DNA from: a bacterium
GTDB taxonomy: Bacteria; SZUA-79; Acidulodesulfobacterales; Acidulodesulfobacteraceae
NCBI GenBank assembly: GCA_021825865.1
Contig: JAKAFU010000016.1
Location: 1 to 40,405, forward strand
DNA length: 40,405 bases
Reading direction: 5' to 3'
Part shown: one piece after another, positions 10,393-31,272 of the stretch
How the letters are laid out: each line of letters opens with the position of its first letter
Numbering within the stretch: the stretch's first letter is position 1
Position numbers and translations under genes: made by a program
The notes under the pieces: model-generated
What the model saw: the letters and a program-made list of their open reading frames with translations, nothing else
The model's database searches: none
What the model was told of the DNA's origin: nothing

Positions 10393-10475
10393 TTTGAATC
10401 TCTCCTTTAAATTAAAAATTATATAAAATTAAATTAAATGAATAATCGCGACAGGTAATGTTTTAAATAGCCTAA

Positions 10476-10551: not shown

Positions 10552-10559
10552 TCGACGGT
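10548..10559. repeat. Perfect 12-base palindrome ACCGTCGACGGT
   Basis: This self-complementary, GC-rich sequence stands out in an AT-rich spacer and overlaps the edge of repeat copy 1. It is absent from copy 2. It could be an operator or chance. Confidence 0.35.
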
Positions 10560-10692
10560 TCGAATAAAAATATGCGCTTTATTCTGTCCGGTTTCTCCAA
10601 TTTTTTGACAAAGAAGTTTGTTGCAGTTAATGAAAATTATTCCCTGATTTAGATTATTGATAAGTTAATAAAATCAGAATATATCAGATATG

Positions 10693-11940
10693 TTATGAGC
10701 AAAGAATTTTATTTAAATCTATTTTAAAAATATTTTTTCCGTAGGTATATTCGTATATAATTTTTAATCCGTGTTTTTCGATTATTTGTTTTGTTATATA
10801 TAAACCGAGCCCGAAACCGTCTTTGTTTTTTGTGTTAAGTTCTTTCGAAAAAGGTTCAAACATAACGTCTTCCGAAATAGGCGGCTTTGCTCCTTTATTT
10901 ATTATGCTCAAAACGCCTTTTTCAATGCTTACCGTGACGGCCGATTTTCCGTTGGCTTTGAATTTAACGGCGTTGTCCATTAAATTTTTTATGCCAATGC
11001 TTAACAGTTCGCAATCCCCTTTAACCGTATAATCGGGATTATCGGAAACAATGTTTATAGCGCCGTCGTTTTTTACGAAAAGCAGTTCGTTTGCCCTGTT
11101 TATTACACTGGTTAAACTGCAGACGGTTGTATTTAAAATTTCATTTCCGGCAGCTATTTTTTCAGCTGCGAACAGTTCGTTTATAAGCATTTCAAGTCTG
11201 TTAAATATGTCAGAAAAAATTCTTTTTTTATTTTCGTCTTCGTCTTTTAATAATTCGAGAGCAATTTTGCCTTTAGTAATAGGCGTTTTTAATTCGTGAG
11301 CTATATTTCTTATGAACCAAATTCTGGTATTCATAGTTTTTTTAAGATTGTCTATGGCTTCTTTAAATTCTTTTGCCAAAAATCCTATCTCGTCCTTTCT
11401 TGAAGCATAGTCGGTTAAATTGACGTTTATATTTCCGTTTTTAAATTCTTCGATGTTGTCCCTTAATTTTTTAAGAGGCCTTATAGAGCGAAATATGCTG
11501 ATATACAAAAGAATGAGTATAACGTTTAAACCTATCCAAGCGGCTAATAAAATGTTCTGCCTTTCGTTTACGCCTGAAATCCTTTTTAATAAAAGATTAA
11601 TTTTTCCGGTTTTTGACCTGAAGTATAAATACTTGTTTCCGTTGAAGCTTAATAAATTCAGGGTATAATCAAGGCGGGGAGGATTTTTTTTTAATATAAT
11701 TTTGCCGTTTTTTAAAATCTTATTGATACTTTTTTGATTTTTTATTAAATTAACGCCGAACACTTCAGAATCTTTCAATTTATTTTTTTTAACAAGAAAC
11801 ACGGCTTTTCTTATAAATTTGAAAGTTTCGACACGGTTTATTATTTTATGCGCAAATAAATAGAAAAACAGCAATACCGCAAAAGACAGAATAAAAACTA
11901 TATTTATTTTAAACAATACGGAGTGTCTGTTAATTTTCAT
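10693..11940 (-). CDS. Sensor histidine kinase (HAMP-HisKA-HATPase)
   Basis: The protein has 415 residues. Membrane helices near residues 12-30 and 130-152 flank a periplasmic sensor of about 100 residues. A HAMP linker follows (RSIRPLKKLRDNIEEFKNG). The phosphoacceptor box is RNIAHELKTPITKGK, with His near residue 215. The ATP-binding domain has N (GIKNLMDNAVKFK) and G (DGFGLGLYITKQI) boxes. The H-box wording resembles ArsS-type kinases of Campylobacterota, an impression I cannot test here. Its start overlaps the response-regulator gene by 11 bases, so the two are coupled. The likely signal is envelope or acid stress, judged from the linked Spy-like gene. Confidence 0.93.
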   Translation of the reverse strand: MKINRHSVLFKINIVFILSFAVLLFFYLFAHKIINRVETFKFIRKAVFLVKKNKLKDSEVFGVNLIKNQKSINKILKNGKIILKKNPPRLDYTLNLLSFNGNKYLYFRSKTGKINLLLKRISGVNERQNILLAAWIGLNVILILLYISIFRSIRPLKKLRDNIEEFKNGNINVNLTDYASRKDEIGFLAKEFKEAIDNLKKTMNTRIWFIRNIAHELKTPITKGKIALELLKDEDENKKRIFSDIFNRLEMLINELFAAEKIAAGNEILNTTVCSLTSVINRANELLFVKNDGAINIVSDNPDYTVKGDCELLSIGIKNLMDNAVKFKANGKSAVTVSIEKGVLSIINKGAKPPISEDVMFEPFSKELNTKNKDGFGLGLYITKQIIEKHGLKIIYEYTYGKNIFKIDLNKILCS

Positions 11941-12628
11941 CGACGTAGAATTTATATCCGTAACCCCTTATAGACTTTATGTATTTAGGATTTCTCGGAT
12001 CGTCCCCTATTTTTTTTCTTATTCTTCCTATTAAAACGTCAACCGTCCTATCAATGCTTTCATAACTCATAGTTTTAATGTTTTCCAAAATATAGTCTCT
12101 TGTAATAACATTTCCTTTGTTGTTATATAAAAGCAAAAAAAGTTCGTATTCCGCAGATGTTAAGTCAACGGTTTTTCCGTTTTTTTTAATAAGCATTTTA
12201 TTTTTGTCTATTTCAAAACCGCCGTTTTTATTATCCTCGTTATTACCGGTACAATTATCGCGTGTTTTTCTTCTGGCTACGGCTCTGATACGCGCAACCA
12301 ATTCTCTTGGGTTATAAGGCTTTGCGACGTAATCGTCTGCTCCTATTTCAAGTCCCGTCACTATGTCGGAATAATCGCCTCTTGCCGAAGAAATAATTAT
12401 CGGAAGACTGTAAAACTGCGAAACCGATTTGCATACCTCCAATCCGTCGGCGTCAGGTAAGGTCAGGTCTAAAATTAAAAGGTCAAAACCGCCTGTGCTC
12501 TCCTTTAAAGCCTTAAGGCCGTTTTCAGCCGTTTCAAAATTTACCAGCTCTATATTGAATTTATAAAGATATTCTTTTAAGAGTTCGGCAATTTCTTTGT
12601 CGTCTTCTATCATTATAACTTTTGTCAT
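11930..12628 (-). CDS. OmpR-family response regulator
   Basis: The protein has 232 residues. The receiver domain (1-120) has the acidic pair in IEDDKE, the phosphorylated Asp in LLILDLTLPDADG near residue 53, the Ser of IIISSARG and the Lys of YVAKPYNP. The C-terminal winged-helix DNA-binding domain (about 135-232) shows LTSAEYELFLLL, the RTVDVLIGRIRKKIGDD recognition helix and IKSIRGYGYKF, all standard for OmpR/PhoB. It is first in the operon with the kinase. The upstream 76-base block also precedes the Spy-like gene, so autoregulation plus activation of that gene is the natural model. Confidence 0.95.
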   Translation of the reverse strand: MTKVIMIEDDKEIAELLKEYLYKFNIELVNFETAENGLKALKESTGGFDLLILDLTLPDADGLEVCKSVSQFYSLPIIISSARGDYSDIVTGLEIGADDYVAKPYNPRELVARIRAVARRKTRDNCTGNNEDNKNGGFEIDKNKMLIKKNGKTVDLTSAEYELFLLLYNNKGNVITRDYILENIKTMSYESIDRTVDVLIGRIRKKIGDDPRNPKYIKSIRGYGYKFYVDEN

Positions 12629-12946: not shown

Positions 12947-13021
12947 TTAAAATATCTTAAAAGCCTTATTCTTTAACGCTTTTGAAAATTAATCAAATTT
13001 AAATTAATAATAGGGGTTGTT

Positions 13022-13324
13022 ATGACAAAGAAAGAATTAGTAGACGCTATCGCAAAAGAATCAAATTTATCTAAAATTGACAGTGAAAAGGCTTTAAATT
13101 CATTTGTAAATGCCGTTACCGCCGCTCTTAAAAAAGGAGATGAAGTTAAGCTGATAGGTTTCGGTAATTTCAGCGTTATGGAAAGAGCCGCAAGAAACGG
13201 ACGCAATCCTCAGACCGGAAAAGCAATTCAGATAAAGGCTTCTAAAGCTCCCAAATTTAAAGCCGGCAAAGCTTTAAAAGATGCGGTTAATACGGTTAAT
13301 ACAAAGAAAAGCGGTAAAAAATAA
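13022..13324 (+). CDS. hup: DNA-binding protein HU (HU/IHF family)
   Basis: The 100-residue protein begins MTKKELVDAIAKES, the standard HU opening, and shows the family signature GFGNFSVMERAARNGRNPQTG across the DNA-binding arm, with the tip RNPQTGK near residues 61-67. It forms dimers that bend and compact DNA. The C-terminus is extended by about ten Lys/Asn/Thr-rich residues beyond the usual 90, a mild basic tail. A consensus promoter lies upstream. The EAL-HDOD gene follows closely on the same strand. Confidence 0.96.
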   Translation: MTKKELVDAIAKESNLSKIDSEKALNSFVNAVTAALKKGDEVKLIGFGNFSVMERAARNGRNPQTGKAIQIKASKAPKFKAGKALKDAVNTVNTKKSGKK

Positions 13325-13387
13325 TATTACTTATATTATCGAGTTTTAAATTAGCGCAGTCTAAAAAGAATGCACAGCGGAGAGAAC

Positions 13388-14626
13388 ATGAACAAACCAA
13401 TCTTCATCGGAAGACAGCCAATAATTGGCGGCGACAAAAGCATATTCGGATATGAAATACTGTTCAGAAGTACAGCCGAAGAAAACTATTCCGGCGTATC
13501 GGTATCTGATAATTTAAGCGCTACCGCAAATGTGCTTGAGAATATATACGATATGGGTCTTAAAGCTCTAATGGGCGAAAAACCGGCATTTATAAACGTA
13601 ACTCCGGACATTTTAGAAAAAGGCATGATGGAGCTTTTGCCTAAAGATAAGATTGTGCTTGAAATACTTGAAACAAGCAAAATTGACGACGATGCCGTTT
13701 CTATCATAACTGAATTTAAAAAAAGAGGGTTCGGCATTGCTTTAGACGACTTCGTTTATACGGAGGAATGGGAGCCGCTTCTGCCTTTGTCGGATTATGT
13801 TAAACTCGATGTTAAACAATATTCGAGAACTGAAACAAAGGAAATGCTTTTGCTTCTGAAAAATTACGGAGTAAAATTCTTGGCAGAGAAAGTAGAAACG
13901 GATGAAGATTTTCAATTTTATAAAAGCCTCGGTTTCGATTTTTTTCAAGGGTATTTTTTTCAAAAGCCTGCCATAATTTCTTCCGTTACCTTAGACCCTG
14001 ATTATGCAATACTGCTTAATATATTTAATTCCTTTCAGTCCAATGAAGACATAGAGGAAATTGAATCGCTTTTTAAAATGACCCCGGACTTGATATATCG
14101 TCTGCTTATACTTATAAATTCAGTAGATTACGAATTTATAGCAAAAATATCCTCTGTGAAACAGGCTATAGCGCTATTAGGATACGATAATGTTTCAAGG
14201 TGGATTCTCACTATTATTCTTGCCTCCAAAAAAAGCGATTTCAGGTCTGATCCTTTGTTGGAAAGCGCTATAATAAAAGGAAGAATGATGGAAGATATAT
14301 GCAAAAAATATATAAATAAAAGTCTTTCCGATAAAGCTTTTCTGGCGGGAATGCTTTCTTTGGTTAATGTTGCTCTGGGACTATCTCTTAAAGAATTATT
14401 AAATAAAATAACTATCGCTCCCGTCATTCATGAAGCATTAGTAGATCATAAAGGCAAACTGGGAGAATTAGCCGAATTTATGGATGAGTATAACAGCGGC
14501 AATTATATTTTGGCGGGCGCCGTTCTTAAAAGAATTAACCCTAATGCCTCAATTTCCGATATTCTTGAAATAAATACCAATGCTTTAATATATCTTGAAG
14601 AAGTAAAAAAATCAGAACTAGTTTGA
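13388..14626 (+). CDS. EAL-HDOD signalling protein (YuxH-type)
   Basis: I chose the ATG at 13388 because GGAG lies five bases upstream and the protein then begins MNKPIFIGRQPI, the usual opening of this family; an upstream ATG at 13370 adds six residues. The N-terminal half is an EAL-type domain: YEILFR in place of the EAL box, FINVTPDIL, ALDDF, KLDVKQ, AEKVET and FFQGYFFQKP. Many metal and c-di-GMP contact residues remain, so phosphodiesterase activity is possible but unproven. The C-terminal half (about 200-410) is an HDOD helical domain (MTPDLIYRLLILINS; ISSVKQAIALLGYDNVSRW). Proteins of this type usually act in c-di-GMP or stress signalling. Confidence 0.88.
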   Translation: MNKPIFIGRQPIIGGDKSIFGYEILFRSTAEENYSGVSVSDNLSATANVLENIYDMGLKALMGEKPAFINVTPDILEKGMMELLPKDKIVLEILETSKIDDDAVSIITEFKKRGFGIALDDFVYTEEWEPLLPLSDYVKLDVKQYSRTETKEMLLLLKNYGVKFLAEKVETDEDFQFYKSLGFDFFQGYFFQKPAIISSVTLDPDYAILLNIFNSFQSNEDIEEIESLFKMTPDLIYRLLILINSVDYEFIAKISSVKQAIALLGYDNVSRWILTIILASKKSDFRSDPLLESAIIKGRMMEDICKKYINKSLSDKAFLAGMLSLVNVALGLSLKELLNKITIAPVIHEALVDHKGKLGELAEFMDEYNSGNYILAGAVLKRINPNASISDILEINTNALIYLEEVKKSELV

Positions 14627-14640
14627 TATACTCCCATACC

Positions 14641-14752
14641 TAAACACCGGGAATAAACTGTCTAAAAACCGGGCATAAACTTTATATTTCCTGACATTTT
14701 CACTCTCCTGACATATTAAATCTTTGGGACAAATTTGGGACAAAAATTCTAT
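14641..14752. repeat. Cluster of three paired short repeats beside tRNA-Pro
   Basis: Three different repeat pairs lie in about 110 bases. A 22-base unit occurs twice in tandem (14641-14662 and 14663-14684, about 18 of 22 matching, core CCGGGAATAAACT). CTCCTGACAT-like motifs occur at about 14690 and 14707, and TTTGGGACAAA occurs twice near 14723-14746. On the minus strand the last two kinds all carry TGTC. Repeated TGTC motifs resemble clustered transposase-binding sites at ends of some IS or Tn7-like elements; this is inference, since no transposase is present. Confidence 0.45.
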
Positions 14753-14837
14753 AAAAATTATAAAATTTATGTAAATTTATAATAAATATAAAATTTATTA
14801 ATGATGTCTGGAAAGGCTTATTTACTGCGGTTTTGAA

Positions 14838-14913
14838 TGGTCGGGATGACACGATTTGAACGTGCGACCCCCTGCACCCCATGCAGGTGCGCTACCAGCT
14901 GCGCCACATCCCG
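14838..14913 (-). tRNA. tRNA-Pro (anticodon GGG)
   Basis: On the minus strand the acceptor stem is CGGGATG/CATCCCG and the D stem is GCGC/GCGC. The anticodon arm CCTGC-ATGGGGT-GCAGG gives GGG, and the T arm is GCACG-TTCAAAT-CGTGT. A73 and an encoded CCA end are present. The sequence resembles other bacterial tRNA-Pro(GGG) genes. Confidence 0.95.
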
Positions 14914-15229
14914 ATATTGAAATGAATATACTTATAACTTATCACTTTATTATTTTATTGTCAATAATCGATAAATAATATATCATAATTCTATGCTTTT
15001 TACATAATACACTAGCATATATGTTTTCCAATATACGAATTCATCGGGTTTTTATTTTTATAAATATATAATTTGCATTTACCAAAAGTATATAATAAAC
15101 ATTATAAGATAACGCTATTATGGTTATCATTAATATATAGTTATAAAATAATAGCCATAAAACAATATTTATAAAAAATTTATAGTAAACGGCATATCAG
15201 CAGATAAAAATTAACTGATATATTAACTT
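14914..15229. other. AT-rich intergenic region
   Basis: About 315 bases lie between tRNA-Pro and the MscS gene. I see no gene, hairpin terminator or convincing promoter. The base composition is extremely AT-rich. Confidence 0.5.
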
Positions 15230-16234
15230 ATGAATAAGATATTTCACCTTTTACATGATAAAATTATAACGTTAGGCGGTTCCAAATTATCTATTTTATC
15301 TATTGCCGTTGCAATTTTGGTTCTTGTATTTTCCTATCTTTTATCCCGTTATTCAATAAAATTTTTAAAAAAAGAATATCTAGATAAAACTTCAATAAGT
15401 AAAGGCACTAAACTGATAATCGTCAGATTAATTAAAATATTTATTTTAATAATAGGAGCTTTTGTCAGTTTTCAAATTCTGGGCATAAATCTTAGCTCGC
15501 TTGCAATATTTGCCGGCATTATAAGTTTAGGCATAGGTTTCGGTATCCAAAATATTTTAAGTAATTTTATTTCCGGAATAATAATATTATTTGAACAGCC
15601 TATAACAGTCGGCGATTATGTTTCTATAGGTGAATTAGACGGCGTGGTCACGGAAATAAGAACAAGAAGCACCACTGTAACAACAAGGGACAATATAAGC
15701 GTTATCGTACCTAATTCTAATTTTATATCTCAGGAGGTAATAAACTGGTCGCATGAAGACCCGAAAATTAGAATTCATATTCCGGTCGGCATTGAAGAAA
15801 CTGCTTCTAAACTTGATTTGGCAAGAGATATTTTGTTACAGATAGCTTCGGAACATCCTAAGGTTTTAAAAGACCCGAAACCAAGCGTCTGGTTCGAAAC
15901 GTTCGGAAATTCTACTTTTAATCTTACGCTTCTTATATGGATTGAATCGGCTGTTTTCAGACACTATGTCGTGAGCGACATCAATTTTGAAATAGCTAAA
16001 AGATATGCTGCAAACAACATTGATATAACTTATCCTTATACCAATTTGCTATTTAAGAATGATTTAAGTATTAATAGCAACAACAATGCAGATACTTTTA
16101 ATAAAATACTGAATCCCGGCGGCGTTAATAATATGCAGGGACACGGGTATCATGAAGATGACGCCAATCATACGGGTAACATTGGTCAAAATGGAAATGA
16201 AAATCCTGTTGATAATAATAAAGGCAAACAATGA
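15230..16234 (+). CDS. Small-conductance mechanosensitive channel (MscS family)
   Basis: The protein has 334 residues. Three membrane helices lie near residues 20-42, 60-85 and 88-118. The pore-lining helix and cytoplasmic vestibule carry the family signature: IISLGIGFGIQNILSNFISG, then EQPITVGDYVSIGELDGVVTEI and NSNFISQEVINWS. It opens on membrane tension and releases solutes during osmotic downshock. The last 60 residues are an Asn/Gly/Asp-rich tail not usual in MscS, one of several low-complexity additions in this window. No good ribosome site precedes the start, but the reading frame is clear. Confidence 0.93.
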   Translation: MNKIFHLLHDKIITLGGSKLSILSIAVAILVLVFSYLLSRYSIKFLKKEYLDKTSISKGTKLIIVRLIKIFILIIGAFVSFQILGINLSSLAIFAGIISLGIGFGIQNILSNFISGIIILFEQPITVGDYVSIGELDGVVTEIRTRSTTVTTRDNISVIVPNSNFISQEVINWSHEDPKIRIHIPVGIEETASKLDLARDILLQIASEHPKVLKDPKPSVWFETFGNSTFNLTLLIWIESAVFRHYVVSDINFEIAKRYAANNIDITYPYTNLLFKNDLSINSNNNADTFNKILNPGGVNNMQGHGYHEDDANHTGNIGQNGNENPVDNNKGKQ

Positions 16235-16433
16235 GTAACATTGGAGTAATTTAAACAATCGGGAGTAATTTGTTGTACATTCAATGTTAAAATATACATT
16301 ATGCTTAATTATATATAATATGTATAGTAAATTCACTGTAACATAAACAGTATCGAATATAACTAAAATACAAGATTGATAAAATTTATATAAATATGGG
16401 CAATATATTATTTTATAGATAAGGAGCGCCGTT

Positions 16434-17351
16434 ATGCTTTACGTTATGCCTAATGCCGGTGTTAAGCCGATTGTCAGATTCATAAATCATGCCAAAAGAG
16501 ATTTAGACATTAATGTTTATTACTTAAATGACGAACCTGTATTTAAAGCCATTCGATATGCCGTCAAAAGAGGCGTTAACGTTAAAATAATGATAGACGG
16601 AAAACCTTATAAAATGTCAATTAGAAAAGAAGAGCAAAAAATAATACAGACTAAAGCACATTTTGAAATAGATAAGATGTTTGATAGAAAATATGTTTTT
16701 GACCATGCTAAATATATGTTTGATAATCATGAGGCTTTAATAGGAACAGCTAATTTTGATTGGTCTGCATTTCATAGAAACAGAGAATATGAATATACTA
16801 CACATAATGAGAATATAATAAACTCGCTTAAAAATATCTTTAATTCCGATTATAGACGCACAGCATTTAACGGCTATGTAAACCGCAATCTTGTTGTATC
16901 GCCCGGTTCAACGCAAAAACTGCTGTCCGTTATAAACCAGCCGGGAAAAATAGACATAGAAACCGAAGAATTGGGATACGACAGAATCGTCCTGTCGGCG
17001 TTGGCGAGAAAGGGCTCAGCCGTCAGAATAATAGTTCCTTCGACTATTTCTTATTATGATAAAAAAAATATAAGATTTTTGGAAAAACATGGGGTTAAAG
17101 TAAGATTAATGCCTGTAAAAAATGTTTATATTCATGCTAAAATGATTGTAGGAGCGCAAGAGGCTTTTATCGGCAGTGAAAATTTTACTTATACTTCACT
17201 GAATAAAAATAGGGAAGCAGGCATTATTATTTATAATAACAATAGGAACAGCAATAATTATAATAGCGTCGGAAGCGGCAATAGCGGCAGCGCTGATACT
17301 TTAAACAGGCTCAGAGACAGATTTAACAAAGACTGGGAAATGGCTAATTAA
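16434..17351 (+). CDS. Phospholipase D-like protein (two HKD-type motifs)
   Basis: The protein has 305 residues behind an AAGGAG ribosome site seven bases from the ATG. Two PLD half-sites are visible: FDHAKYMFDNHEALIGTANF near residue 100 and YIHAKMIVGAQEAFIGSENF near 233. Both keep His-x-Lys and the following GT/GS-x-N-F segment, but the second has Ala where the HKD Asp is usual and the first has its Asp one place early. A low-complexity Asn/Ser/Gly stretch (about 264-285) interrupts the C-terminus. There is no signal peptide or membrane helix, so it is probably cytoplasmic. It may be a phosphatidyltransferase or nuclease of the PLD superfamily. Confidence 0.8.
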   Translation: MLYVMPNAGVKPIVRFINHAKRDLDINVYYLNDEPVFKAIRYAVKRGVNVKIMIDGKPYKMSIRKEEQKIIQTKAHFEIDKMFDRKYVFDHAKYMFDNHEALIGTANFDWSAFHRNREYEYTTHNENIINSLKNIFNSDYRRTAFNGYVNRNLVVSPGSTQKLLSVINQPGKIDIETEELGYDRIVLSALARKGSAVRIIVPSTISYYDKKNIRFLEKHGVKVRLMPVKNVYIHAKMIVGAQEAFIGSENFTYTSLNKNREAGIIIYNNNRNSNNYNSVGSGNSGSADTLNRLRDRFNKDWEMAN

Positions 17352-17413
17352 ACCGAAATAACTATATATAAAATAATAACAATAATAGTAATAATAAATT
17401 AATAACTAAATTG

Positions 17414-18133
17414 ATGACCGAGACTGCCGCAATTAAACCAATCAAACAAATCCAACAAGTTGAACCAAGCAAACCAGTCAAAATATTTTTTACAGGGGGT
17501 ATATCTTCCGGTAAATCAAAATACGCTGAGAAAACGGCGCTATCCATTTTAAACAAAAAATTTGATTTAAAAAAAAATTCAGATAAAAATTTAGTTCAAT
17601 TTTTAGATGAAGGTCTCTATGACAATTTAAACGGAAAATATCCGGAAAATTCAAACATATTGCACTTTATTGCTACCGCAAATTCGTTATATTCCGATAA
17701 TGAAATGAAAATAAAAATTGCGGAACATAAAGCAAAACGCCCGGATTGTTTTATAATCCATGAAAATTTTGATGATTTAAAAACTGAAATTAACAATACG
17801 TATAATATGTTTAATTCAATCTCAGCCTTATCTCATAATAATAATCATATAATAATACTAATTGATTCTATGACTTTATGGCTTTCAGGAATTTTTACCG
17901 ATTTAACAAAATATAATGAAGCATTATCCGCATTAAATGACCTTTTTGATTTTATCGGCAAGCTGGATTGTTTTTTTATATTTGTAAGCGATAATTTAAG
18001 TTTCAATATGGTACCTCAAGATGAATATGTCAGAAAATTTATAAGCTTAAATGGATTAATGGAGCAAAAAATTTCTGCGTTATGCGATTTTGTTTACTTG
18101 ACTGTCGCAGGAAATGTCTTAAGATTAAAATAA
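17414..18133 (+). CDS. cobU: Adenosylcobinamide kinase / adenosylcobinamide-phosphate guanylyltransferase
   Basis: I chose the ATG at 17414; a TTG three bases upstream would add one residue. The P-loop is FTGGISSGKSKYAEKTA. The guanylylated-His region reads FIATANSLYSDNEMKIKI followed by EHKAKRP, matching the CobU histidine motif. The C-terminus NMVPQDEYVRKFISLNGLM then KISALCDFVYLTVAG is CobU-like, but the usual SNEVGxGIVP is altered to SDNLSFNMVP. An extra Asn/Lys-rich segment of about 30 residues lies between the P-loop and the His motif. The enzyme activates adenosylcobinamide to its GDP form for joining to the lower-ligand nucleotide. It is the first gene of the cobalamin cluster. Confidence 0.85.
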   Translation: MTETAAIKPIKQIQQVEPSKPVKIFFTGGISSGKSKYAEKTALSILNKKFDLKKNSDKNLVQFLDEGLYDNLNGKYPENSNILHFIATANSLYSDNEMKIKIAEHKAKRPDCFIIHENFDDLKTEINNTYNMFNSISALSHNNNHIIILIDSMTLWLSGIFTDLTKYNEALSALNDLFDFIGKLDCFFIFVSDNLSFNMVPQDEYVRKFISLNGLMEQKISALCDFVYLTVAGNVLRLK

Positions 18134-18276
18134 TAGAATATAAAAATGAACAAAAATATAATACAATATGTTAATACGGCGCAGCGAGACTAATTTAACC
18201 GCGCAACAAAACAAAAAAATAAAATACAATAAATATAATAAGATAAATAAAATAACAATAAAAGAGTTTAGAATCT

Positions 18277-19422
18277 ATGGCAGAATACGGCAAAAATATT
18301 TACTGTGATTCCGATAAGTTAAATAAAGAAAAATTATTGTCATTAATTAAATCTATTCCTGAGGTAGATAAAAAAAAATATTATAAGATCGCCGAAAGTC
18401 GTTTAAATAGGCTTATTAAGCCGAAAGGAAGTCTTGGCAGGCTTGAGAAGTTTGTCTGCGATATTGTTGCTATTACGGAAAATGAAAGACCGGTCGTGAA
18501 CAGCAAATATGTTTGTGTTTTTGCAGGGGACCATGGAGTCGCCTTTGAAAATGTCAGCGCCTTTAAACAGGAAGTTACGGCTCAAATGGTTGCCAATTTT
18601 TTGACAGGCGGAGCTGCGATTAATACAATTGCAAATTCTGTCGGAGCCAGGGTCGTAGTTGCCGATGTAGGAGTGAATGCCGATTTTGGCAATGATTTTT
18701 TAAATAACGAAAATTTCATCAATGCAAAAATAAATAAAGGAACAGGCAACATTTTTAAAGAACCTGCAATGTCCTATGATGATGCGCTTAAATCTGTGCA
18801 TACCGGTATAATTATAGCCGAAAAATTAATTGACGGGGGAGCAAATATTTGTTCCACCGGGGATATGGGTATTGCAAATACTACGCCGTCTTCAGCTATT
18901 GTCAGCTTTTATTCGGGAATTGAGCCGAAGACGGTTTGCGGATACGGAACAGGTGTTGACAGAAAAGTTATTTCTAAAAAAGCGGCGATTATTGAGAAAG
19001 CGATACTTCACAATATAACGGACAGAGATGACCCGATTAGCGTCCTTGCCGGCATAGGCGGTTTTGAAATAGGAGCTATAGCAGGTTTTATTATAGGATG
19101 CGCATTAAAAAAAACGCCTGTTGTTGTCGATGGTTTTATATCAACGGCAGGAGCGATAATAGCCGTTAATTTAAATAATAACTGTTCAGATTATATATTT
19201 TTAGGTCATCTTTCAAAGGAAAAAGGTCATAGTGCTGCAGTTTCATTAATTAACAAACAATCTAAATCATATAAAAAACCTGTTTTAAATTTAGGTATGC
19301 ATCTTGGAGAAGGAACAGGAGCGGTTTTGGCAATGAAAATAATAGAAGCGTCTGTCGATATGTACAATAATATGCTGACATTTGACGAAGCTAATGTTAT
19401 TGCTTCAAAGAAAAATCAATGA
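18277..19422 (+). CDS. cobT: Nicotinate-nucleotide:dimethylbenzimidazole phosphoribosyltransferase
   Basis: At 381 residues it is slightly longer than the usual 350. Signature segments are RLIKPKGSLGRLEKF near residue 46, VFAGDHGV near 87, GGAAINTIANS, GDMGIANTTPSSAI near 197, and GFISTAGAI near 288; a catalytic Glu follows near the C-terminus in HLGEGTGAVLA. The enzyme transfers phosphoribose from nicotinate mononucleotide to the benzimidazole base that becomes the lower ligand. Its neighbour at 22494 probably makes a benzimidazole, so the two would work in sequence. It follows cobU after 143 AT-rich bases with no terminator. Confidence 0.96.
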   Translation: MAEYGKNIYCDSDKLNKEKLLSLIKSIPEVDKKKYYKIAESRLNRLIKPKGSLGRLEKFVCDIVAITENERPVVNSKYVCVFAGDHGVAFENVSAFKQEVTAQMVANFLTGGAAINTIANSVGARVVVADVGVNADFGNDFLNNENFINAKINKGTGNIFKEPAMSYDDALKSVHTGIIIAEKLIDGGANICSTGDMGIANTTPSSAIVSFYSGIEPKTVCGYGTGVDRKVISKKAAIIEKAILHNITDRDDPISVLAGIGGFEIGAIAGFIIGCALKKTPVVVDGFISTAGAIIAVNLNNNCSDYIFLGHLSKEKGHSAAVSLINKQSKSYKKPVLNLGMHLGEGTGAVLAMKIIEASVDMYNNMLTFDEANVIASKKNQ

Positions 19423-19527
19423 AGAATCAATCAAATAATTAGAAATAAAAAATAATATAAAAATAAATAGGTTAAGTAAATAGATAACTAAATAAAATCT
19501 TTTCTATATAATTTGTCGTAAATTTTT

Positions 19528-20487
19528 ATGAAAAAAATTTTAACTGCAATTAGTTTTTTGACTATTTTTAATTTTAATTCAATTTTTAAAAGCGGTGCCG
19601 ATAAGATATTAAAGTCAAACCAAGATGCAGTTCATACCGTTTCCGCCGTTCATAAAAATAAAACAGACACGGCGACATATCCATCAGACGCCGATGTTTA
19701 TATGGCAGGAACATCTGGCACGAAGAACAATCACATGTACGGCGCGGTGCAGAGAACTGATATCGATGTCGATTCAGGATTGCAGCTGGTAAAATCTATA
19801 AAGTTTTTTCCTTTAGCAGGGTTATTTATAGGTTTGAGCATTGCAGTTTTATATGTTGTTTCTGATAAAATTACATTTTCGCCTGGTATTGCTTCAGTAA
19901 TTTCAATCGCCGGTCTTTTTATAATTACCGGCGGATTGCATTTTGACGGCCTGTCTGACACTTCCGACGGTCTTATGGCATTTTTAAAAACAGGAGATAA
20001 AAACAAATTTTATAATGCGATGAAAGACGTAAATACCGGACTGGCAGGTACAATAAGCGTTATATTTTATATTGTTTTATTATATAAAATTATATTGGAC
20101 TTTAATTCTTTTCAAACATATAACAGACTTTACGGAATTTATGCATTAATTAGTTTTCCTGTTGTAGGCAGATATACTATTGTTTTAATGTCTTATTTTA
20201 CAGTTACTCCCGAGAACTTCAGGGGTATAGGTTCGATTTTTACCGAAGGAACCGATATATTAACATTTATTTCAGCTTCTGCGATTACATTAATTATTGT
20301 AGTACTTTTTTTTGGATATAGCGGACTTTTTGCTTTGCTTGCTACATCGTTTACAATGTTGATTGTTTGTTATTTTTTTATTAAAAAGTTTGGCGGAGTA
20401 AATGGAGATATGCTTGGTTTCGGTGTAAAAATATCTGAGATAATTTTTTTAATTTCATTATTAGATTTTATAAAAACAGGATTTTAA
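19528..20487 (+). CDS. cobS: Adenosylcobinamide-GDP ribazoletransferase (cobalamin synthase)
   Basis: This 319-residue polytopic membrane protein has the key motif GLHFDGLSDTSDGLMAF near residues 137-153, which holds the Asp residues that bind metal, and FPLAGLFIGLSIAVLY near residue 94. It joins GDP-cobinamide to the ribazole phosphate made by CobT, the last assembly step. Unusually, about 60 polar residues (about 22-82) are inserted between the first helix (ISFLTIFNF) and the FPLAG helix, where CobS normally has a short loop. No strong ribosome site is seen at this ATG. Confidence 0.93.
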   Translation: MKKILTAISFLTIFNFNSIFKSGADKILKSNQDAVHTVSAVHKNKTDTATYPSDADVYMAGTSGTKNNHMYGAVQRTDIDVDSGLQLVKSIKFFPLAGLFIGLSIAVLYVVSDKITFSPGIASVISIAGLFIITGGLHFDGLSDTSDGLMAFLKTGDKNKFYNAMKDVNTGLAGTISVIFYIVLLYKIILDFNSFQTYNRLYGIYALISFPVVGRYTIVLMSYFTVTPENFRGIGSIFTEGTDILTFISASAITLIIVVLFFGYSGLFALLATSFTMLIVCYFFIKKFGGVNGDMLGFGVKISEIIFLISLLDFIKTGF

Positions 20488-20550
20488 AATTTAGCCTATA
20501 TTTATATTATTTGCTATATTATTTACTGATTGATATTTTATTTGCGAATT

Positions 20551-20597
20551 TATATTTATTTATTAATTTATTTATTTATTTATCTATCTATCTATTT
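20551..20597 (+). repeat. Tetranucleotide repeat tract upstream of cbiA
   Basis: TTTA units, with one interruption, run into TCTA units and back to TTTA. The tract ends about 59 bases before the cbiA start codon. Such tracts can slip during replication, but nothing here shows that it controls expression. Confidence 0.6.
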
Positions 20598-20655
20598 ATA
20601 ATATATAACAATATATAACACATAACATATATAATTATATAAAATAACTTTATCT

Positions 20656-22278
20656 ATGCCGCAATCATCTTTGCCTAAATCATCGTTTGCCGTTTTGTTT
20701 TCCTCTGACAGGTCGTCTTCCGGAAAATCAACTTTTACACTTGCCTTCTCCGGTTTTGTAAAAGAGCGCGGCATATCGGTCTCATTATTTAAAATAGGCC
20801 CTGATTTTATAGACCCCATTATTCTTGGCACCGCATGCGGCTGCAATGTTACAAATTTAGATACCTTCTTAATACCTAAAAACAGATTAAATGATTTGCT
20901 TCAGCACTCAGCCGGCGGTGATGACGGTATTTACGGCGATAAAAAAATTAACGTTGATAATAACGGCGATAACGGCGACAACAGAGAGAATGGCGATAAT
21001 AATAAAGCTTTTATTATTGAAGGCGCCATGGGACTGTATGACGGCAACTCCTATATTATAGCCGAAAGATTTAAACCGCCGATAGTCCTTGTAATGGATG
21101 CCGCAAGGATATCTTCAACGATGGCGTCTTTAGTATACGGATTGAAAAATTATAAAAAAGGCATTATTATTTCGGGAGTAATTTTAAATAATATTTCTTC
21201 GGAAAGACATTATCAACTTATAGCTTCTGAAATTAAAAAAAATATTAAGGATGTGAAAGTTTTTGGATATATTGCTGCAGACGGAAAGAATATTGCAATA
21301 AAAGAACGGCATTTAGGGCTTGCTACGCCCGACTACTTTTCTTCTGGAAAAGAATTTCAAGAAAAGACTGATAAAATAAAAAATCTTGTAATGAAAAATA
21401 TTGATGCCGATTTGTTAATAAAAACTTTAATAAAAGATTCAAAGTCTTTTTTTTCGCTCTTGAAAACAAATAAAAACAATAATAAAAAAACAGTTGCCGA
21501 AGCCGGCAAATCTAAGACTAACAGGTCTAATAAAGTCAAAATTGCCGTTGCGTATGATAATGCTTTTTTGTTTTATTATAAATTTAATTTCGAAATCTTC
21601 AAAAAATTTAATGCGGAAATTATTTTTTTTAGTCCTATAAAAGATAAATCAATACCTTCAAGAGTCAAAGCTCTGTACATCGGCGGCGGCTATCCTGAGC
21701 TGTACGCCAAAGAACTTTCATGCAATATAAACATAAAACAGGAAATTTATAAATTTTACAAAAATAACGGATTGATTTTTGCCGAATGCGGCGGGTTAAT
21801 GTATCTATCCAAAAAATTAATTTATAAAACCGTGCAGTATGATTTCTTAGATATTTTGCCGTTTGTTTCGACTATGGACGGAACTAAGTTGAAATTGGGA
21901 TATCGTACGGTATATTTGTCTAAGGATTCATTTCTCGGGAAAGCAAATCTTAAAATAAACGGACATGAATTTCATTATTCGGAAATTTTAAATGACAATC
22001 AAAACATAATCAATTATAATATTAATTCTAATAATGAAGTCGGCAATACGGCTAACTGCGGAAAAAATAATTTTAGTCTTGAATCTCTTCATAGTGATAT
22101 TAATGTCGAATCTGTATTTGCAGTAAAAAATGTTTCTTCAAACAGCTTAAAGAGATGCAAGGTTGATGAGGGATACAAAATTTTAAATGCTATTGGAACT
22201 TATGTTCATGTTTCTTTTTTCTCAAATCAAAAAATTGCAAGGAATTTTATTGAAAGCGCAAAAAAATTATCGTTATAA
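20656..22278 (+). CDS. cbiA: Cobyrinate a,c-diamide synthase
   Basis: This is a CbiA/CobB-type enzyme of 540 residues, longer than the usual 450-470. The N-terminal ATP-binding domain starts FSSDRSSSGKST (P-loop, residues 15-26) followed by KIGPDFIDP and GAMGLYDG. The C-terminal glutaminase domain has YIGGGYPELYAKEL, the nucleophile in FAECGGLMYLSKK, and a late His in GTYVHVSFFSN. It amidates the a and c side chains of cobyrinate using glutamine and ATP. Extra length is in low-complexity insertions: one Asp/Asn/Gly-rich (about 86-117), one Lys/Asn-rich linker (about 270-295) and one Asn/Ser-rich (about 455-500). It belongs to an earlier pathway step than its neighbours. Confidence 0.93.
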   Translation: MPQSSLPKSSFAVLFSSDRSSSGKSTFTLAFSGFVKERGISVSLFKIGPDFIDPIILGTACGCNVTNLDTFLIPKNRLNDLLQHSAGGDDGIYGDKKINVDNNGDNGDNRENGDNNKAFIIEGAMGLYDGNSYIIAERFKPPIVLVMDAARISSTMASLVYGLKNYKKGIIISGVILNNISSERHYQLIASEIKKNIKDVKVFGYIAADGKNIAIKERHLGLATPDYFSSGKEFQEKTDKIKNLVMKNIDADLLIKTLIKDSKSFFSLLKTNKNNNKKTVAEAGKSKTNRSNKVKIAVAYDNAFLFYYKFNFEIFKKFNAEIIFFSPIKDKSIPSRVKALYIGGGYPELYAKELSCNINIKQEIYKFYKNNGLIFAECGGLMYLSKKLIYKTVQYDFLDILPFVSTMDGTKLKLGYRTVYLSKDSFLGKANLKINGHEFHYSEILNDNQNIINYNINSNNEVGNTANCGKNNFSLESLHSDINVESVFAVKNVSSNSLKRCKVDEGYKILNAIGTYVHVSFFSNQKIARNFIESAKKLSL

Positions 22279-22493
22279 TTTTAACTATGAATTAATAAAA
22301 GACAGAAAAATAGAATAATGATTTTGTAAAAATATATTTGATAATAAAAATAAATAATACATATAAATGACAAATATAAATAACAAATATATATAACCGG
22401 CATTATATATTAAGAGATTATATGTAAAATAGACTATATGTAGTTAACAAAAACATAAATAACAAAATTATAAATTAAAAGGAGTATTATTAA

Positions 22494-23855
22494 ATGTCAG
22501 ATATAACTAATACAAATACAAATGATTTAAAAAATATTGCATGCATCCCTGCATTGTTGACACAAAAAGAATCGGCAGAGAAGAATCGATTCACCAAAGC
22601 TATGGAATATGTGTGCAATAAAGAAAATATTGATAAGTCTTATCTTTTAAACAATGTGGCTTCAGGTAAAATAGTAATCCTGCATAATAAAAATCGAGAT
22701 AATTTCGTGGGAATAGGAAAAGGGCTGACTACAAAAGTAAACGCAAGCATCGGTACATCTACTAATCATATAAACATTAATGAAGAAGTTAATAAAACAA
22801 AATTAGCCGAAAAAAACGGGGCTGATACCCTCATGGAACTTAGTGTCGGCGGTGATTTAGATTTAATACGCAGAACAGTTCTGAACAGCACTTCGCTTCC
22901 GGTAGGCACGGTTCCTTTATATCAGGCGTTCAGGGAAGCTATAAATAAATATAAAAATCCTGCAAAAATGCCTGAGGACTTAATTTTTGAAGTAATTGAA
23001 AAACAGTGTGCGGACGGTATTTCTTTTATGGCTATTCATTCCGGTCTAAATCTGATATCTCTTGAAAGACTGAGAAAACAATCATACAGATATGCAGGGC
23101 TTGTTTCAAAAGGAGGTTCTTATCTTATTGCATGGATGATTGAAAACAATAAAGAAAATCCGCTGTATGAAAGATTTGAAGATGTTTTGAAGATTTTAAA
23201 AAAATATGATACCGTTTTGAGTCTTGGAAATGGACTAAGAGCAGGTTCTACGGCAGATTCTTTTGACAGGGCGTATATGCAGGAATTGATTATAAATTGC
23301 GAATTGAGCGAGATTGCAAGAGATTACGGAGTGCAGGCAATAGTTGAAGGACCTGGACATATTCCGTTAGATGAAATTGAAGCTAATGTTAAAATTCAGA
23401 AAAGAATGTCCGACGATGCTCCTTTTTATGTTTTAGGACCATTAGTAACAGATGTCGCAGCCGGATTTGACCATATTTCAAGTGCGATAGGAGCGGCTAT
23501 GTCTTCAGCGTACGGGGCAGATTTTTTATGCTATGTAACGCCGTCGGAACATCTGGGTATTCCTTCCGAGGCAGATGTTGTTATGGGACTTCAGGCGGCG
23601 AAAATTGCAGCTCACGCAGGAGATATGATAAAACTTAAAAAAAATGCATCAGATATTAATATATCTAAAGCAAGGCGTGATGTTGATTGGGAAAAACAAT
23701 TCTATTATTCTATAGACCCGGAATATGCACGAAGCGTATATGAAGAAAAAAACGATGATAACACGGCAGGATGCAGTATGTGCGGAGACTTCTGCGCCCC
23801 TATTAAAGTTAGGAAATATTTTAAACATGAAATCTCAAAAGGAAAAAAAGCTTAA
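22494..23855 (+). CDS. bzaF: ThiC-family radical SAM enzyme, probably 5-hydroxybenzimidazole synthase
   Basis: The protein has 453 residues and an AGGAG ribosome site. The ThiC core is clear: TKVNASIGTS (80-89), PVGTVPLYQAF, EGPGH with metal-binding His289, TPSEHLGIP with His353, and a C-terminal cluster motif C427-x2-C430-x3-C434. Several near-invariant ThiC segments are altered: SLGDGLRPG is SLGNGLRAG (243-251), APGYDH is AAGFDH (322-327), DLSTGGD is ELSVGGD and VSRGGS is VSKGGS. It lies after cobU-cobT-cobS-cbiA, and no TPP riboswitch is seen. Anaerobic bacteria use the ThiC paralogue BzaF to make the lower-ligand base from aminoimidazole ribotide, often beside cobT. I favour BzaF; ThiC proper remains the alternative. 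Confidence 0.75.
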   Translation: MSDITNTNTNDLKNIACIPALLTQKESAEKNRFTKAMEYVCNKENIDKSYLLNNVASGKIVILHNKNRDNFVGIGKGLTTKVNASIGTSTNHININEEVNKTKLAEKNGADTLMELSVGGDLDLIRRTVLNSTSLPVGTVPLYQAFREAINKYKNPAKMPEDLIFEVIEKQCADGISFMAIHSGLNLISLERLRKQSYRYAGLVSKGGSYLIAWMIENNKENPLYERFEDVLKILKKYDTVLSLGNGLRAGSTADSFDRAYMQELIINCELSEIARDYGVQAIVEGPGHIPLDEIEANVKIQKRMSDDAPFYVLGPLVTDVAAGFDHISSAIGAAMSSAYGADFLCYVTPSEHLGIPSEADVVMGLQAAKIAAHAGDMIKLKKNASDINISKARRDVDWEKQFYYSIDPEYARSVYEEKNDDNTAGCSMCGDFCAPIKVRKYFKHEISKGKKA

Positions 23856-24165
23856 ATTTTTTATACCGGCAGTGTTTGCTATTTTAATTTCATTGATTGT
23901 TATTTTTAGCATTGAAGGTATAATCAAAGTTTATAAATTAAAGGCAGCAAAATCCAAACTTGCCGATAATTTAATATATTTAAAAAAAGACAATGCTAAA
24001 ATCAGACGGCAAATATATGATTTAAAGCATAATAAGCAATATATTTCAGAATTAGCCAGACAAGAACTCGGCATGATTAAAAGAGGAGAAATAGTTTTTA
24101 AATTTTTTAGCGCCGATAAAAGTAAAAATGTAACTAAAAGAAATAAAAGCAACGCAAGCCCGTGA
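23827..24165 (+). CDS. FtsB/DivIC-like septum formation initiator
   Basis: I use the ATG at 23827, which overlaps the end of the preceding gene by 29 bases and gives 112 residues; the frame is open further upstream, but that part is a shadow of the bzaF gene. A short basic N-terminus is followed by one membrane helix (about 9-30, FFIPAVFAILISLIVIF), a coiled coil (about 38-70) and ELARQELGMIKRGEIVFKF, the hallmark ending of FtsB/DivIC proteins. It would be a bitopic component of the division complex with FtsL and FtsQ. A Lys/Asn/Ser-rich tail ends it. RNase G follows convergently. Confidence 0.8.
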   Translation: MKSQKEKKLKFFIPAVFAILISLIVIFSIEGIIKVYKLKAAKSKLADNLIYLKKDNAKIRRQIYDLKHNKQYISELARQELGMIKRGEIVFKFFSADKSKNVTKRNKSNASP

Positions 24166-24275
24166 AATATTTTGATATACTTCCCTTCAAGAAGAAGCAT
24201 GAGTATTCATTCTTGTTTGGTTCTGATAAAAGTTAAAAAATATAAAATAACTGCCGAGAAAGCCGAATATTAATG

Positions 24276-25799
24276 TTATTCTATCTCATATGATTCAGGA
24301 TGAAAACTATCCTGCATTTTAAATATTATTTTCTTGTTTATTTTTTTTTCTAATTTTTCAATATTAGCTTCTTCTTCATATATTTTGTTCATAACTTGCG
24401 GATGGACAATTACAGTTATTTTTTTAGATCTTGTTTTCTTAGATGTTTTTAGAATTGTTCTGAATATCTCAAAACAAATTGTTTGAGACGATTTAATCAA
24501 ACCGTTTCCTTCGCATAGCGGGCAATTTTCCATAAGCATACTTGAAAGGCTGTTTCTTAGCCTCTTCCTTGTCATTTCTAACAGCCCCAGCTCCGATATT
24601 TTATTGATAGTAGTTCTGACTCTGTCGTTCTTTAAAGCTTCCTCTAATGTGTGATAAACTTTCTCCCTATTTTCAATTTTCTGCATATCTATAAAGTCAA
24701 TAATGATAATGCCCCCTATATTTCTCAGTCTGAGCTGGTAGGCAATTTCTTTAGCCGCTTCCAGATTAGTTTTTAATATAGTGTCTTCAAAATTTCTTTT
24801 TCCTACATATTTGCCGGTATTAACATCAATAGACGTTAAAGCTTCGGTGCTTTCAATGACGATGTAGCCGCCGGATTTTAACCATATTTTTTTATCAAGA
24901 GCTTTATAAATTTCGTCTTCTACGTCGTAATATTCCAGTATCATCTGAGGTTTATCGTATAATTCTACTCTATTTTTAAATTCAGGCGATTGAATATTCA
25001 AAAAGTTTATAATCTTGTCATATTCTTCTTTATTGTCAACTATAACATTATCTACGCTATTATTGAGCAAATCTCTTATTGCTCTGAGTGAAATGCTTAA
25101 ATCTTCGTGAATCAGCGCAGGCGCTTTTGAATCTATTTTATCCTTATATATATTATTCCATAAATTTACAAGAAATTTTATATCGCGTTCTATATCAAGT
25201 TCGCTTGTATTTTCAGCGGCTGTTCTTATAATCAGACCGGCTTCTTCAGGTTTATATTGCATAGCAATAGATTTTAATCTTTTTCTTTCAGATTCATTTT
25301 TGATCTTCCTGGAAATACCCACATGAGGCGAAGTAGGCAGATATACAAGATATCTTCCGGGGAGAGAAATATGGCTTGTAACCCTTGGTCCTTTGGTTTT
25401 AACAGGCTCTTTCGCAACCTGCACAAGTATTTCCTGATTTTTTCTCAGAAGTTCATCAATGCTTGGCATATTCTTTTCTTTTTTTCTTTTTTTCTTTTTC
25501 TTTGGCGTAAAACTTGCATCAATATCGTTATTTTCTTCATCCCCGTCAAAAAAATCATAATCTGTTATATCGATATCAAAAAAATCTCCGGCATACAAGA
25601 AAGCCGATTTATCATATCCGATATCTATAAAAGCCGCCTGAATTCCGGGCAATATTTGCATAACCTTGCCTTTGTAAATATTTCCATGTCTGGCAGAATT
25701 AGATTTCCTTTCTAAATAAAAATCTACAAGTTGTCCGTTTTCTAAAAGAGCAACCCTTGTTTCGTAATCATCTTTGTTTATTATAAGCTCGGTAGACAA
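24276..25799 (-). CDS. rng: Ribonuclease G (RNase E/G family)
   Basis: The 507-residue protein starts with TTG behind an AGAGG ribosome site. The N-terminal S1-like domain (NIYKGKVMQILPGIQAAFID, about 41-60) is interrupted by an acidic then Lys-rich stretch (about 85-112). The catalytic DNase I-like domain carries metal-binding Asp in TSIDVNTGKY and in IIIIDFIDM, and a zinc-link motif CPLCEGNG lies near residue 435. It cuts single-stranded RNA at the 5' ends of rRNA precursors and takes part in mRNA turnover. The length fits RNase G rather than RNase E, because the long C-terminal scaffold is absent. Confidence 0.94.
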   Translation of the reverse strand: MSTELIINKDDYETRVALLENGQLVDFYLERKSNSARHGNIYKGKVMQILPGIQAAFIDIGYDKSAFLYAGDFFDIDITDYDFFDGDEENNDIDASFTPKKKKKRKKEKNMPSIDELLRKNQEILVQVAKEPVKTKGPRVTSHISLPGRYLVYLPTSPHVGISRKIKNESERKRLKSIAMQYKPEEAGLIIRTAAENTSELDIERDIKFLVNLWNNIYKDKIDSKAPALIHEDLSISLRAIRDLLNNSVDNVIVDNKEEYDKIINFLNIQSPEFKNRVELYDKPQMILEYYDVEDEIYKALDKKIWLKSGGYIVIESTEALTSIDVNTGKYVGKRNFEDTILKTNLEAAKEIAYQLRLRNIGGIIIIDFIDMQKIENREKVYHTLEEALKNDRVRTTINKISELGLLEMTRKRLRNSLSSMLMENCPLCEGNGLIKSSQTICFEIFRTILKTSKKTRSKKITVIVHPQVMNKIYEEEANIEKLEKKINKKIIFKMQDSFHPESYEIE

Positions 25800-29398: not shown

Positions 29399-29426
29399 TT
29401 GATTGATTAAATTTTGCAGTTATAAT
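29399..29426 (+). promoter_or_regulatory. Sigma-70-type promoter of purC
   Basis: TTGATT (29399-29404) and TATAAT (29421-29426) are spaced by 16 bases. The start site would be near 29433, about 20 bases before the AAAGGAGG ribosome site. Confidence 0.65.
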
Positions 29427-29474
29427 ATAATAGCTATTATTTTAACCACTTTAAAGGAGGCGTCAAAATCAAAA

Positions 29475-30227
29475 TTGACGGACAAATTTATGGCTGAAAG
29501 CATCGATCGCAGCAATTTAAAAAAGATTTATGAAGGAAAAGCTAAAATATTATATGAATTCAGCGGAGAAGAAGATAAGAAAGATTTACTGCTTACATAT
29601 TTTAAAGATGATGCAACGGCATTTAACGGGCAAAAAAAAGGAACTATTATAAAAAAAGGTGAATACAATAATGCTATATCCGCATCGCTTTTTAAATTTT
29701 TGAAAAATAAAGGAATAAATAATCATTTTATCGAAAAGATATCAGAAAGAGAGATGCTTACATATCATTTAAAGATGCTGCCGATAGAATTTATTGTAAG
29801 AAATATCGCTGCAGGAAGTCTTGCAAAAAAGATGGGGGTTGAAGAAGGTGTAAAATTTTTATCTCCTGTTATTGAAATGTGTTTTAAAAGCGATGAACTC
29901 GGAGACCCTATGATAAACAAATCCTACTTGAAGGCTTTTGATATATGCTATCCGGCAGATGCTTCAAAAGCTGAAAAGACGGCTTTAGAAATAAATGAAA
30001 TTTTAAGTAAATTTTTTGACGATAATAATATTATAGTTGTTGATTTTAAGTTAGAATTCGGACTGTATAAAAATGAGGTTATGCTTGCAGATGAAATTAC
30101 GCCTGATACTATGAGACTTTGGGATAAACAGACAATGGAAAAAGTTGATAAAGACCGTTTCAGGAGAGATTTGGGAAAGGTTGAGGAAGCATACCAGAGA
30201 ATTGTCGGTATAACATCTCAATGCTAA
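29475..30227 (+). CDS. purC: Phosphoribosylaminoimidazole-succinocarboxamide (SAICAR) synthase
   Basis: Features run from KKIYEGKAKILYE near the start through DDATAFNGQKKG, PIEFIVRNIAAGSLAKK, and IIVVDFKLEFGLYKNEVMLA to ADEITPDTMRLWD, all standard PurC motifs. The enzyme joins aspartate to CAIR with ATP in purine synthesis. The start is ambiguous. A TTG at 29475 lies 14 bases after AAAGGAGG (29453-29460), while the ATG at 29490 lies 29 bases after it; in-frame sequence further upstream overlaps the promoter. I chose the TTG, giving 250 residues. No other pur genes are nearby. Confidence 0.94.
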   Translation: MTDKFMAESIDRSNLKKIYEGKAKILYEFSGEEDKKDLLLTYFKDDATAFNGQKKGTIIKKGEYNNAISASLFKFLKNKGINNHFIEKISEREMLTYHLKMLPIEFIVRNIAAGSLAKKMGVEEGVKFLSPVIEMCFKSDELGDPMINKSYLKAFDICYPADASKAEKTALEINEILSKFFDDNNIIVVDFKLEFGLYKNEVMLADEITPDTMRLWDKQTMEKVDKDRFRRDLGKVEEAYQRIVGITSQC

Positions 30228-30612: not shown

Positions 30613-31218
30613 TTAATTAAGAGCTTCATAAACCTTGCCGACTAGACCTTCTCCGGGTTTTAGTGTTTTATCCCCCTGATTCCATTTTGCAGGGCAAACT
30701 TCATTCGGATGTTCGGCAACATAAATGTTTGCTTTAACCTTTCTTAATAATTCATCGGAATTTCTGCCGACATTAAAAAAGTTAACCTCCGATGCGACCA
30801 ACTTTCCTTCAGGATTTATAATGAATGTTCCTCTGAAAGCAAGACCCGAATTTTCATCGTATACGCCGAAAATTTTAGAAACCTTGCCGGTAGGGTCTGC
30901 GCCCATTAAGAATTTAACTTTTTCTAACAATTTTTCGTCTCTCTGCCATGCCATATGCACAAAGTGGGTATCCGTGCTTATGGATACAATTTGGGCGCCT
31001 AACTTTTCAAGCTCATCTTGTTTTGTAGCGAAATCGGCTAGTTCGGTAGGACATACGAAAGTATAGTCTGCAGGATAAAACACTAAAATCGTCCATTTTT
31101 TGTCTTTTTTTGCGTCTTCAAGGCTGAATGTTCCAAAGCCGCCTGTTTTAGGATTAAAAGTATTGATTGTTCCAAACGAAGGTACTTCATTTCCGATAAA
31201 AGCTTTTTCCAATTCCAT
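30613..31218 (-). CDS. 2-Cys peroxiredoxin (AhpC/Prx1 type)
   Basis: The ATG at 31218 follows AAGGAGA by six to seven bases and gives 201 residues; the longer open frame adds 13 residues upstream of this ribosome site and is rejected. The peroxidatic Cys56 is in FYPADYTFVCPTEL and the resolving Cys175 is in NEVCPAKWNQG. It reduces hydrogen and organic peroxides, with electrons from AhpF or a thioredoxin system; no reductase gene is adjacent. With the rubrerythrin gene at 8967 it makes two separate peroxide defences in the window. It has its own strong promoter. Confidence 0.95.
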   Translation of the reverse strand: MELEKAFIGNEVPSFGTINTFNPKTGGFGTFSLEDAKKDKKWTILVFYPADYTFVCPTELADFATKQDELEKLGAQIVSISTDTHFVHMAWQRDEKLLEKVKFLMGADPTGKVSKIFGVYDENSGLAFRGTFIINPEGKLVASEVNFFNVGRNSDELLRKVKANIYVAEHPNEVCPAKWNQGDKTLKPGEGLVGKVYEALN

Positions 31219-31272
31219 AAATAGTCTCCTTATAATAAGATAATTAATATTAATCAATAATCAATATCAATG

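Follow-up and report, generated by a model that had tools for sequence, protein, structure and literature searches.

Gene content of the cob locus

Within the stretch of DNA analyzed here (40,405 nucleotides; the window), profile searches bore out the gene order given in the initial annotation, in which a thiC-like gene follows cobU, cobT, cobS, and cbiA on one and the same strand, the forward one. The first of these encodes a CobU-like adenosylcobinamide kinase/guanylyltransferase (17411–18133; PF02283, 102.8 bits); the second the nicotinate-nucleotide:benzimidazole phosphoribosyltransferase CobT, which activates the lower ligand (18277–19422; TIGR03160, 390 bits for a cut-off of 319); the third the cobamide synthase CobS, which attaches the nucleotide loop (19528–20487; PF02654, 125.7 bits); and the fourth the cobyrinate a,c-diamide synthase CbiA/CobB (20656–22278; NF002204, 365 bits, cut-off 254). 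The thiC-like open reading frame (22494–23855), whose ATG lies shortly downstream from a ribosome-binding site (aaaggag, 22480–22486, same strand), encodes 453 amino acids, and its product—a full-length protein of the ThiC superfamily—matches PF01964 with 576.6 bits (E 4e-173). In its translation we found each of the motifs quoted previously, namely AAGFDH, ELSVGGD, VSKGGS, SLGNGLRAG (residues 243–251, codons at 23220–23246, forward strand), and the C-terminal [4Fe-4S] motif CSMCGDFC (residues 427–434, with C427, C430, and C434; codons at 23772–23795, forward strand).

Across the family the order cobU-cobT-cobS-cbiA-bzaF is conserved together with a convergent RNase G gene downstream; of the 20 family loci having upstream sequence, 19 have cobT near the last gene, 18 of them with both on the same strand. 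When further loci with BzaF-type proteins were inspected, cobT was within the fetched flank in 32 out of 59, and at least one of cobU, cobT, cobS, and cbiA in 44 out of 59. The same order, with cobC between cobS and cbiA (cobU-cobT-cobS-cobC-cbiA-bzaF), has been published for Geotalea daltonii (PMC13119186).

An ftsB/divIC-like gene (PF04977; 23827–24165, forward strand) most likely starts within the 3' end of the thiC-like gene in another frame, with an overlap of about 29 bp, which overlapping start is kept in all nine family loci examined and therefore suggests a translational coupling of the cobamide gene with a cell-division gene. Farther downstream are purC (29403–30227, forward strand) and a gene for an AhpC-type peroxiredoxin (30613–31257, reverse strand), a neighborhood that is conserved across the family, in part as an inverted block. 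Efflux-type genes flank the cob region on both sides; in the interval 8967–12628 the genes of an ArsS-type sensor kinase and an OmpR-type response regulator are close to a rubrerythrin gene; and a tRNA-Pro(ggg) at 14838–14913 (reverse strand), which escaped Rfam run with default settings over the whole window, was recovered by ARAGORN and by a permissive Rfam search (59.5 bits).

Host lineage and predicted lower ligand

The best matches of the window protein in the genome collection were from metagenome-assembled genomes (MAGs) of Candidatus Acidulodesulfobacterota (SZUA-79), the protein of Ca. Acididesulfobacter diazotrophicus AP1 being 91% identical over the whole length. The lineage is uncultured, and the paper that describes it presents it as coming from acid mine drainage, facultatively anaerobic, and endowed with a cytochrome bd oxidase (PMC6776010); in that paper, a search for the terms cobalamin, vitamin, and B12 returned no mention. 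Nor did we find an earlier report of bzaF in this lineage. Since contig 10 of the genome carries the anaerobic corrin-ring cluster cbiH, cbiG, cbiF, cbiL, cbiT, and cbiD, and contig 12 a MetH-like B12-using enzyme, the lineage looks, from its gene content, like a producer as well as a user of cobamides.

According to the literature on anaerobic lower-ligand synthesis, BzaF alone yields 5-hydroxybenzimidazole, and further methylation requires bzaC, bzaD, and bzaE (PMC6461909, PMC8123684, PMC8620254; for background on BzaF and BzaC, cf. also PMC7726332 and PMC11117688). None of the 30 family genomes reached the 150-bit cut-off for bluB (best score, 43) or the 450-bit cut-off for bzaD (best score, 116; 37 in the window's own genome), and the conserved cob cluster contains no methyltransferase gene. 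In view of these absences, the native cobamide is most likely 5-hydroxybenzimidazolyl cobamide, a product that the initial annotation had already raised as possible and that we predict with good, though not complete, confidence.

The alternative that concerns the end product—and not the identity of the gene—is that the enzyme does form a benzimidazole, but that the cobamide is modified further, into the 5-methoxybenzimidazolyl or the DMB form, by an unrecognized analogue of bzaC, bzaD, or bzaE. For the host lineage, which is uncultured, O2 respiration has been reported, and the genome encodes generic class I methyltransferases (e.g., C69:50186). When we searched with PF00891, a general O-methyltransferase family to which BzaC probably belongs, weak matches to generic methyltransferases were all that appeared. 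Against further modification stand the same lack of any bzaD-type protein above the cut-off and of a methyltransferase gene in the cob cluster, together with the precedent of Geobacter sulfurreducens, which possesses bzaF (GSU3005) along with cobT and cobU (GSU3010) and makes unmodified 5-hydroxybenzimidazolyl cobamide (PMC8123684, PMC7726332). We accordingly regard a further-modified cobamide as unlikely, although it is the alternative that fares best.

A canonical ThiC encoded elsewhere in the genome

A profile search of the genome to which the window belongs returned exactly two ThiC homologues. The other copy, on contig 67, scores higher with PF01964 than the window protein (643.7 versus 576.6 bits), lies directly downstream of thiE, bears the canonical GDGLRPG and VSRGG motifs, and shares 48% identity with the window protein. 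Thiamine-pyrimidine synthesis in this genome therefore has its own enzyme; a second thiC, which the initial annotation had proposed to look for, is indeed present, and the window gene does not stand alone as a ThiC homologue. As judged by score, 25 of the 30 family genomes have both kinds in full length, the other five having fragments, one copy, or none; and such a pair is also found in most genomes of the Geobacter group. More broadly, most of the genomes checked among those with second-copy proteins (Geobacter, Geomonas, Nitrospirae, and others) contain one ThiC and one BzaF-type protein.

Two observations on these copies may be added. The canonical ThiC of the lineage, that of contig 67 included, has the cluster motif CSMCS[SA]YC, with Ser instead of the Gly that normally follows the second Cys. 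In a MAG of candidate division WOR-3 (G071), for its part, the sole ThiC homologue (L105) is of the BzaF type (GNGMRAG) and no canonical ThiC accompanies it, which points either to an incomplete MAG or to another job for that BzaF-type protein.

As to regulation, searches at the gathering threshold gave no TPP riboswitch in the window, and neither did laxer settings applied to 13000–24500, in agreement with the initial annotation, which had reported none upstream of the gene. As evidence on the identity of the gene this absence is nevertheless weak, because the genome's own thiE-thiC locus likewise has no TPP riboswitch above threshold: the only one found in this genome precedes thiG on contig 16, whereas in a related genus (G010) such a riboswitch precedes the same thiE-thiC pair.

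Phylogenetic placement

With the second copies encoded by Geobacter, Geomonas, Geomobilimonas, Desulfuromonas, Nitrospirae, and other MAGs, the window protein shares 55–60% identity. We built a tree of 78 proteins with IQ-TREE, consisting of 42 second-copy proteins, including the one from the window, and 36 ThiC proteins, including that of Escherichia coli; on the BzaF side, same-family relatives represent the characterized G. sulfurreducens GSU3005 and Desulfuromonas acetoxidans BzaF. For a BzaA or BzaB reference, searches with the BzaB model in one phylum (nine genomes) and in 386 genomes gave no match over the cut-off, so that the 78 proteins contain neither. A branch of length 0.77 (support 100/100) divides all 42 second-copy proteins from all 36 ThiC proteins, and the window protein lies on the side of the Geobacteraceae and Desulfuromonas BzaF-type proteins, outside the ThiC clade within which, on the view of the initial annotation, its grouping would have spoken against bzaF. 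Upon removal of the diagnostic columns the BzaF-type proteins still formed one clade (SH-aLRT 99).

Inside the BzaF-type group, the Acidulodesulfobacterota proteins constitute a deep clade of their own (100/100, stem 0.65) with about 58% identity to the BzaF of the Geobacteraceae; on account of this long stem and limited identity, a shift of product in the Acidulodesulfobacterota clade relative to those enzymes would be compatible with the sequences. Two GNGMRSG copies, L201 (G117) and L203 (G116), also branch deeply on the BzaF-type side, far from the others, and are possibly a distinct subfamily.

These results bear on the possibility that the window gene encodes a second ThiC, that is, an HMP-P synthase situated beside the cob genes by chance. 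The protein does pass the ThiC equivalog models TIGR00190 (539.6 bits, cut-off 460) and NF009895, and it conserves nearly all the catalytic ligands (see below); but these models do not discriminate between the two kinds of enzyme, since they accept the BzaF-type proteins of Geomonas and Geomobilimonas just as readily. Moreover, the tree parts the window protein from the 36 ThiC proteins with full support, the canonical thiE-thiC pair is located elsewhere in the genome, and the TPP riboswitches examined sit at thiG or at thiE-thiC, with none in the window; we consequently deem a second ThiC very improbable. Still less credible is that the protein is one half, BzaA or BzaB, of the two-protein synthase BzaAB of Eubacterium or Moorella—whose halves resemble ThiC, the NCBIfam BzaB model being named ThiC_like_1, and act with CobT in anaerobic bzaA-bzaB-cobT operons (PMC8123684)—since the genome and its relatives have a single non-ThiC copy and hence no partner, and the window protein scores 520.1 bits with the BzaB model TIGR04386, far under the cut-off of 700.

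Motifs and active-site residues

The marks that discriminate the BzaF-type proteins from ThiC are GNG[LMF]R[AS]G and MELS. Among the departures from ThiC listed in the initial annotation, SLGNGLRAG proved to be a strong mark, with Asn246 at the position where ThiC has Asp (Asp383 in Arabidopsis ThiC): all 79 BzaF-type sequences have Asn there and all 76 ThiC sequences have Asp, a count that is partly circular for this one residue because the groups were drawn by the GNG/GDG motif. Independent of that motif are the other positions fixed in the BzaF-type clade—S85, A180, N186, a one-residue insertion at Tyr198, S256, N268, C269, and S306—and likewise the tree without the diagnostic columns. The window protein neither clusters with ThiC nor carries the GDGxRPG motif.

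Other proposed marks did not withstand the comparison. The C-x2-C-x3-C spacing of the cluster motif had been taken as evidence for bzaF, but it is shared with most short ThiC proteins, among them the genome's own (CSMCSSYC) and that of Geobacter, the C-x2-C-x4-C form being restricted to the long ThiC of the E. coli type; the three cysteines themselves are conserved in all 155 aligned sequences. AAGFDH cannot serve as a general mark either, for AAG[FY]DH is also present in some ThiC-type proteins (L017, L026) and the Geobacteraceae BzaF has APGFDH; nor can VSKGGS, since VSKGG appears in 60 of the 79 BzaF-type sequences and VSRGG in the other 19.

In Arabidopsis ThiC, Tyr286, His322, Ser342, and Arg386 hold the AIR phosphate together with backbone amides, Asn228 and Glu422 bind the ribose, and His426 and His490 bind the metal, while Arg343 touches the adenine of SAM and Asp383 bonds the imidazole N3 of AIR (PMC4389238). 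When these ligands were mapped by motif, only two proved to be changed in the window protein: Asp383, replaced by Asn246, and Arg343, replaced by Lys206, a lysine found in 60 of the 79 BzaF-type sequences; the residues for the AIR phosphate and ribose, the metal, and the [4Fe-4S] cluster are hence retained. From the sequences we infer that one scaffold may give rise to two products through changes around the imidazole of AIR.

Proposed function

We consider it very probable that the window gene is bzaF, the identity advanced in the initial annotation, and that it encodes a predicted AIR-to-5-hydroxybenzimidazole synthase, a radical SAM enzyme of the ThiC superfamily. The PF01964 match, the position in the BzaF-type clade with 100/100 support, the existence of a separate canonical thiC, the linkage to cobT and the nucleotide-loop genes in a synteny like that of G. 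daltonii, the single-protein form, and the retention of the catalytic residues all agree with that assignment. The result is thus not a new kind of system but a soundly identified bzaF from a lineage in which we found none reported earlier.

By analogy with the characterized BzaF, the enzyme would bind SAM and AIR—an intermediate common to purine and thiamine synthesis—and the C-terminal [4Fe-4S] cluster would cleave SAM reductively, upon which the 5'-deoxyadenosyl radical would rearrange AIR into 5-hydroxybenzimidazole and not into the thiamine pyrimidine. The base would then be activated by CobT, whose gene is the third upstream of bzaF, and joined by CobS, whose gene is the second upstream, to the GDP-cobinamide that CobU makes. 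The resulting cofactor would be made without O2 and, with neither bluB nor bzaD found, would most likely be 5-hydroxybenzimidazolyl cobamide.

Automatic annotation of this gene would be misleading, for the NCBIfam ThiC models accept the window protein and other BzaF-type proteins above their cut-offs, and the gene would be called thiC. Its recognition as bzaF, for its part, predicts the type of cobamide of an uncultured acid-mine-drainage lineage; the contrast of GNGxRAG with GDGxRPG provides a compact sequence rule by which ThiC and BzaF-type proteins can be told apart in metagenomes; and the Asp/Asn difference offers a concrete residue swap bearing on how one scaffold yields two very different products from AIR. 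A broader proposal would be that a whole phylum-level lineage of acid-mine-drainage bacteria for which O2 respiration has been reported uses the O2-independent BzaF route, in the absence of BluB, to make 5-hydroxybenzimidazolyl cobamide and, in addition, that the switch from ThiC to BzaF chemistry is determined largely by the fixed replacement of Asp by Asn where ThiC holds the imidazole N3 of AIR, along with the Pro-to-Ala change next to it; taken jointly, these two statements are tentative, and we would sooner expect the conjunction to fail than to hold.

Comparison with known systems

The closest known counterpart is the BzaF of the Geobacteraceae and Desulfuromonadales (GSU3005; G. daltonii Geob_0543), likewise a ThiC-like enzyme of one protein whose gene accompanies cobT, the order being cobU-cobT-cobS-(cobC)-cbiA-bzaF, with GNGLRAG, MELSV, VSKGG, a single Tyr inserted ahead of the VSKGG loop, and a separate ThiC in the genome. 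The window protein differs from that group in its identity of about 57–60% to the family sequences, its own deep clade, the presence of HSG and AAG[FY]DH in the place of HCG and APGFDH, and a host from acid mine drainage with reported O2 respiration. With ThiC (the contig 67 copy and those of E. coli and Arabidopsis, 4S25–4S29) it shares the superfamily and the ligands of SAM/[4Fe-4S], metal, and AIR phosphate; but it departs from ThiC in the replacement of Asp383 by Asn, in RAG instead of RPG, in several clade-fixed changes, and in the company of cob instead of thi genes. BzaA and BzaB of Eubacterium and Moorella, finally, are also ThiC-like, also have cobT nearby, and form the product predicted here, 5-hydroxybenzimidazole; yet two proteins are needed in those organisms, where here there is one.
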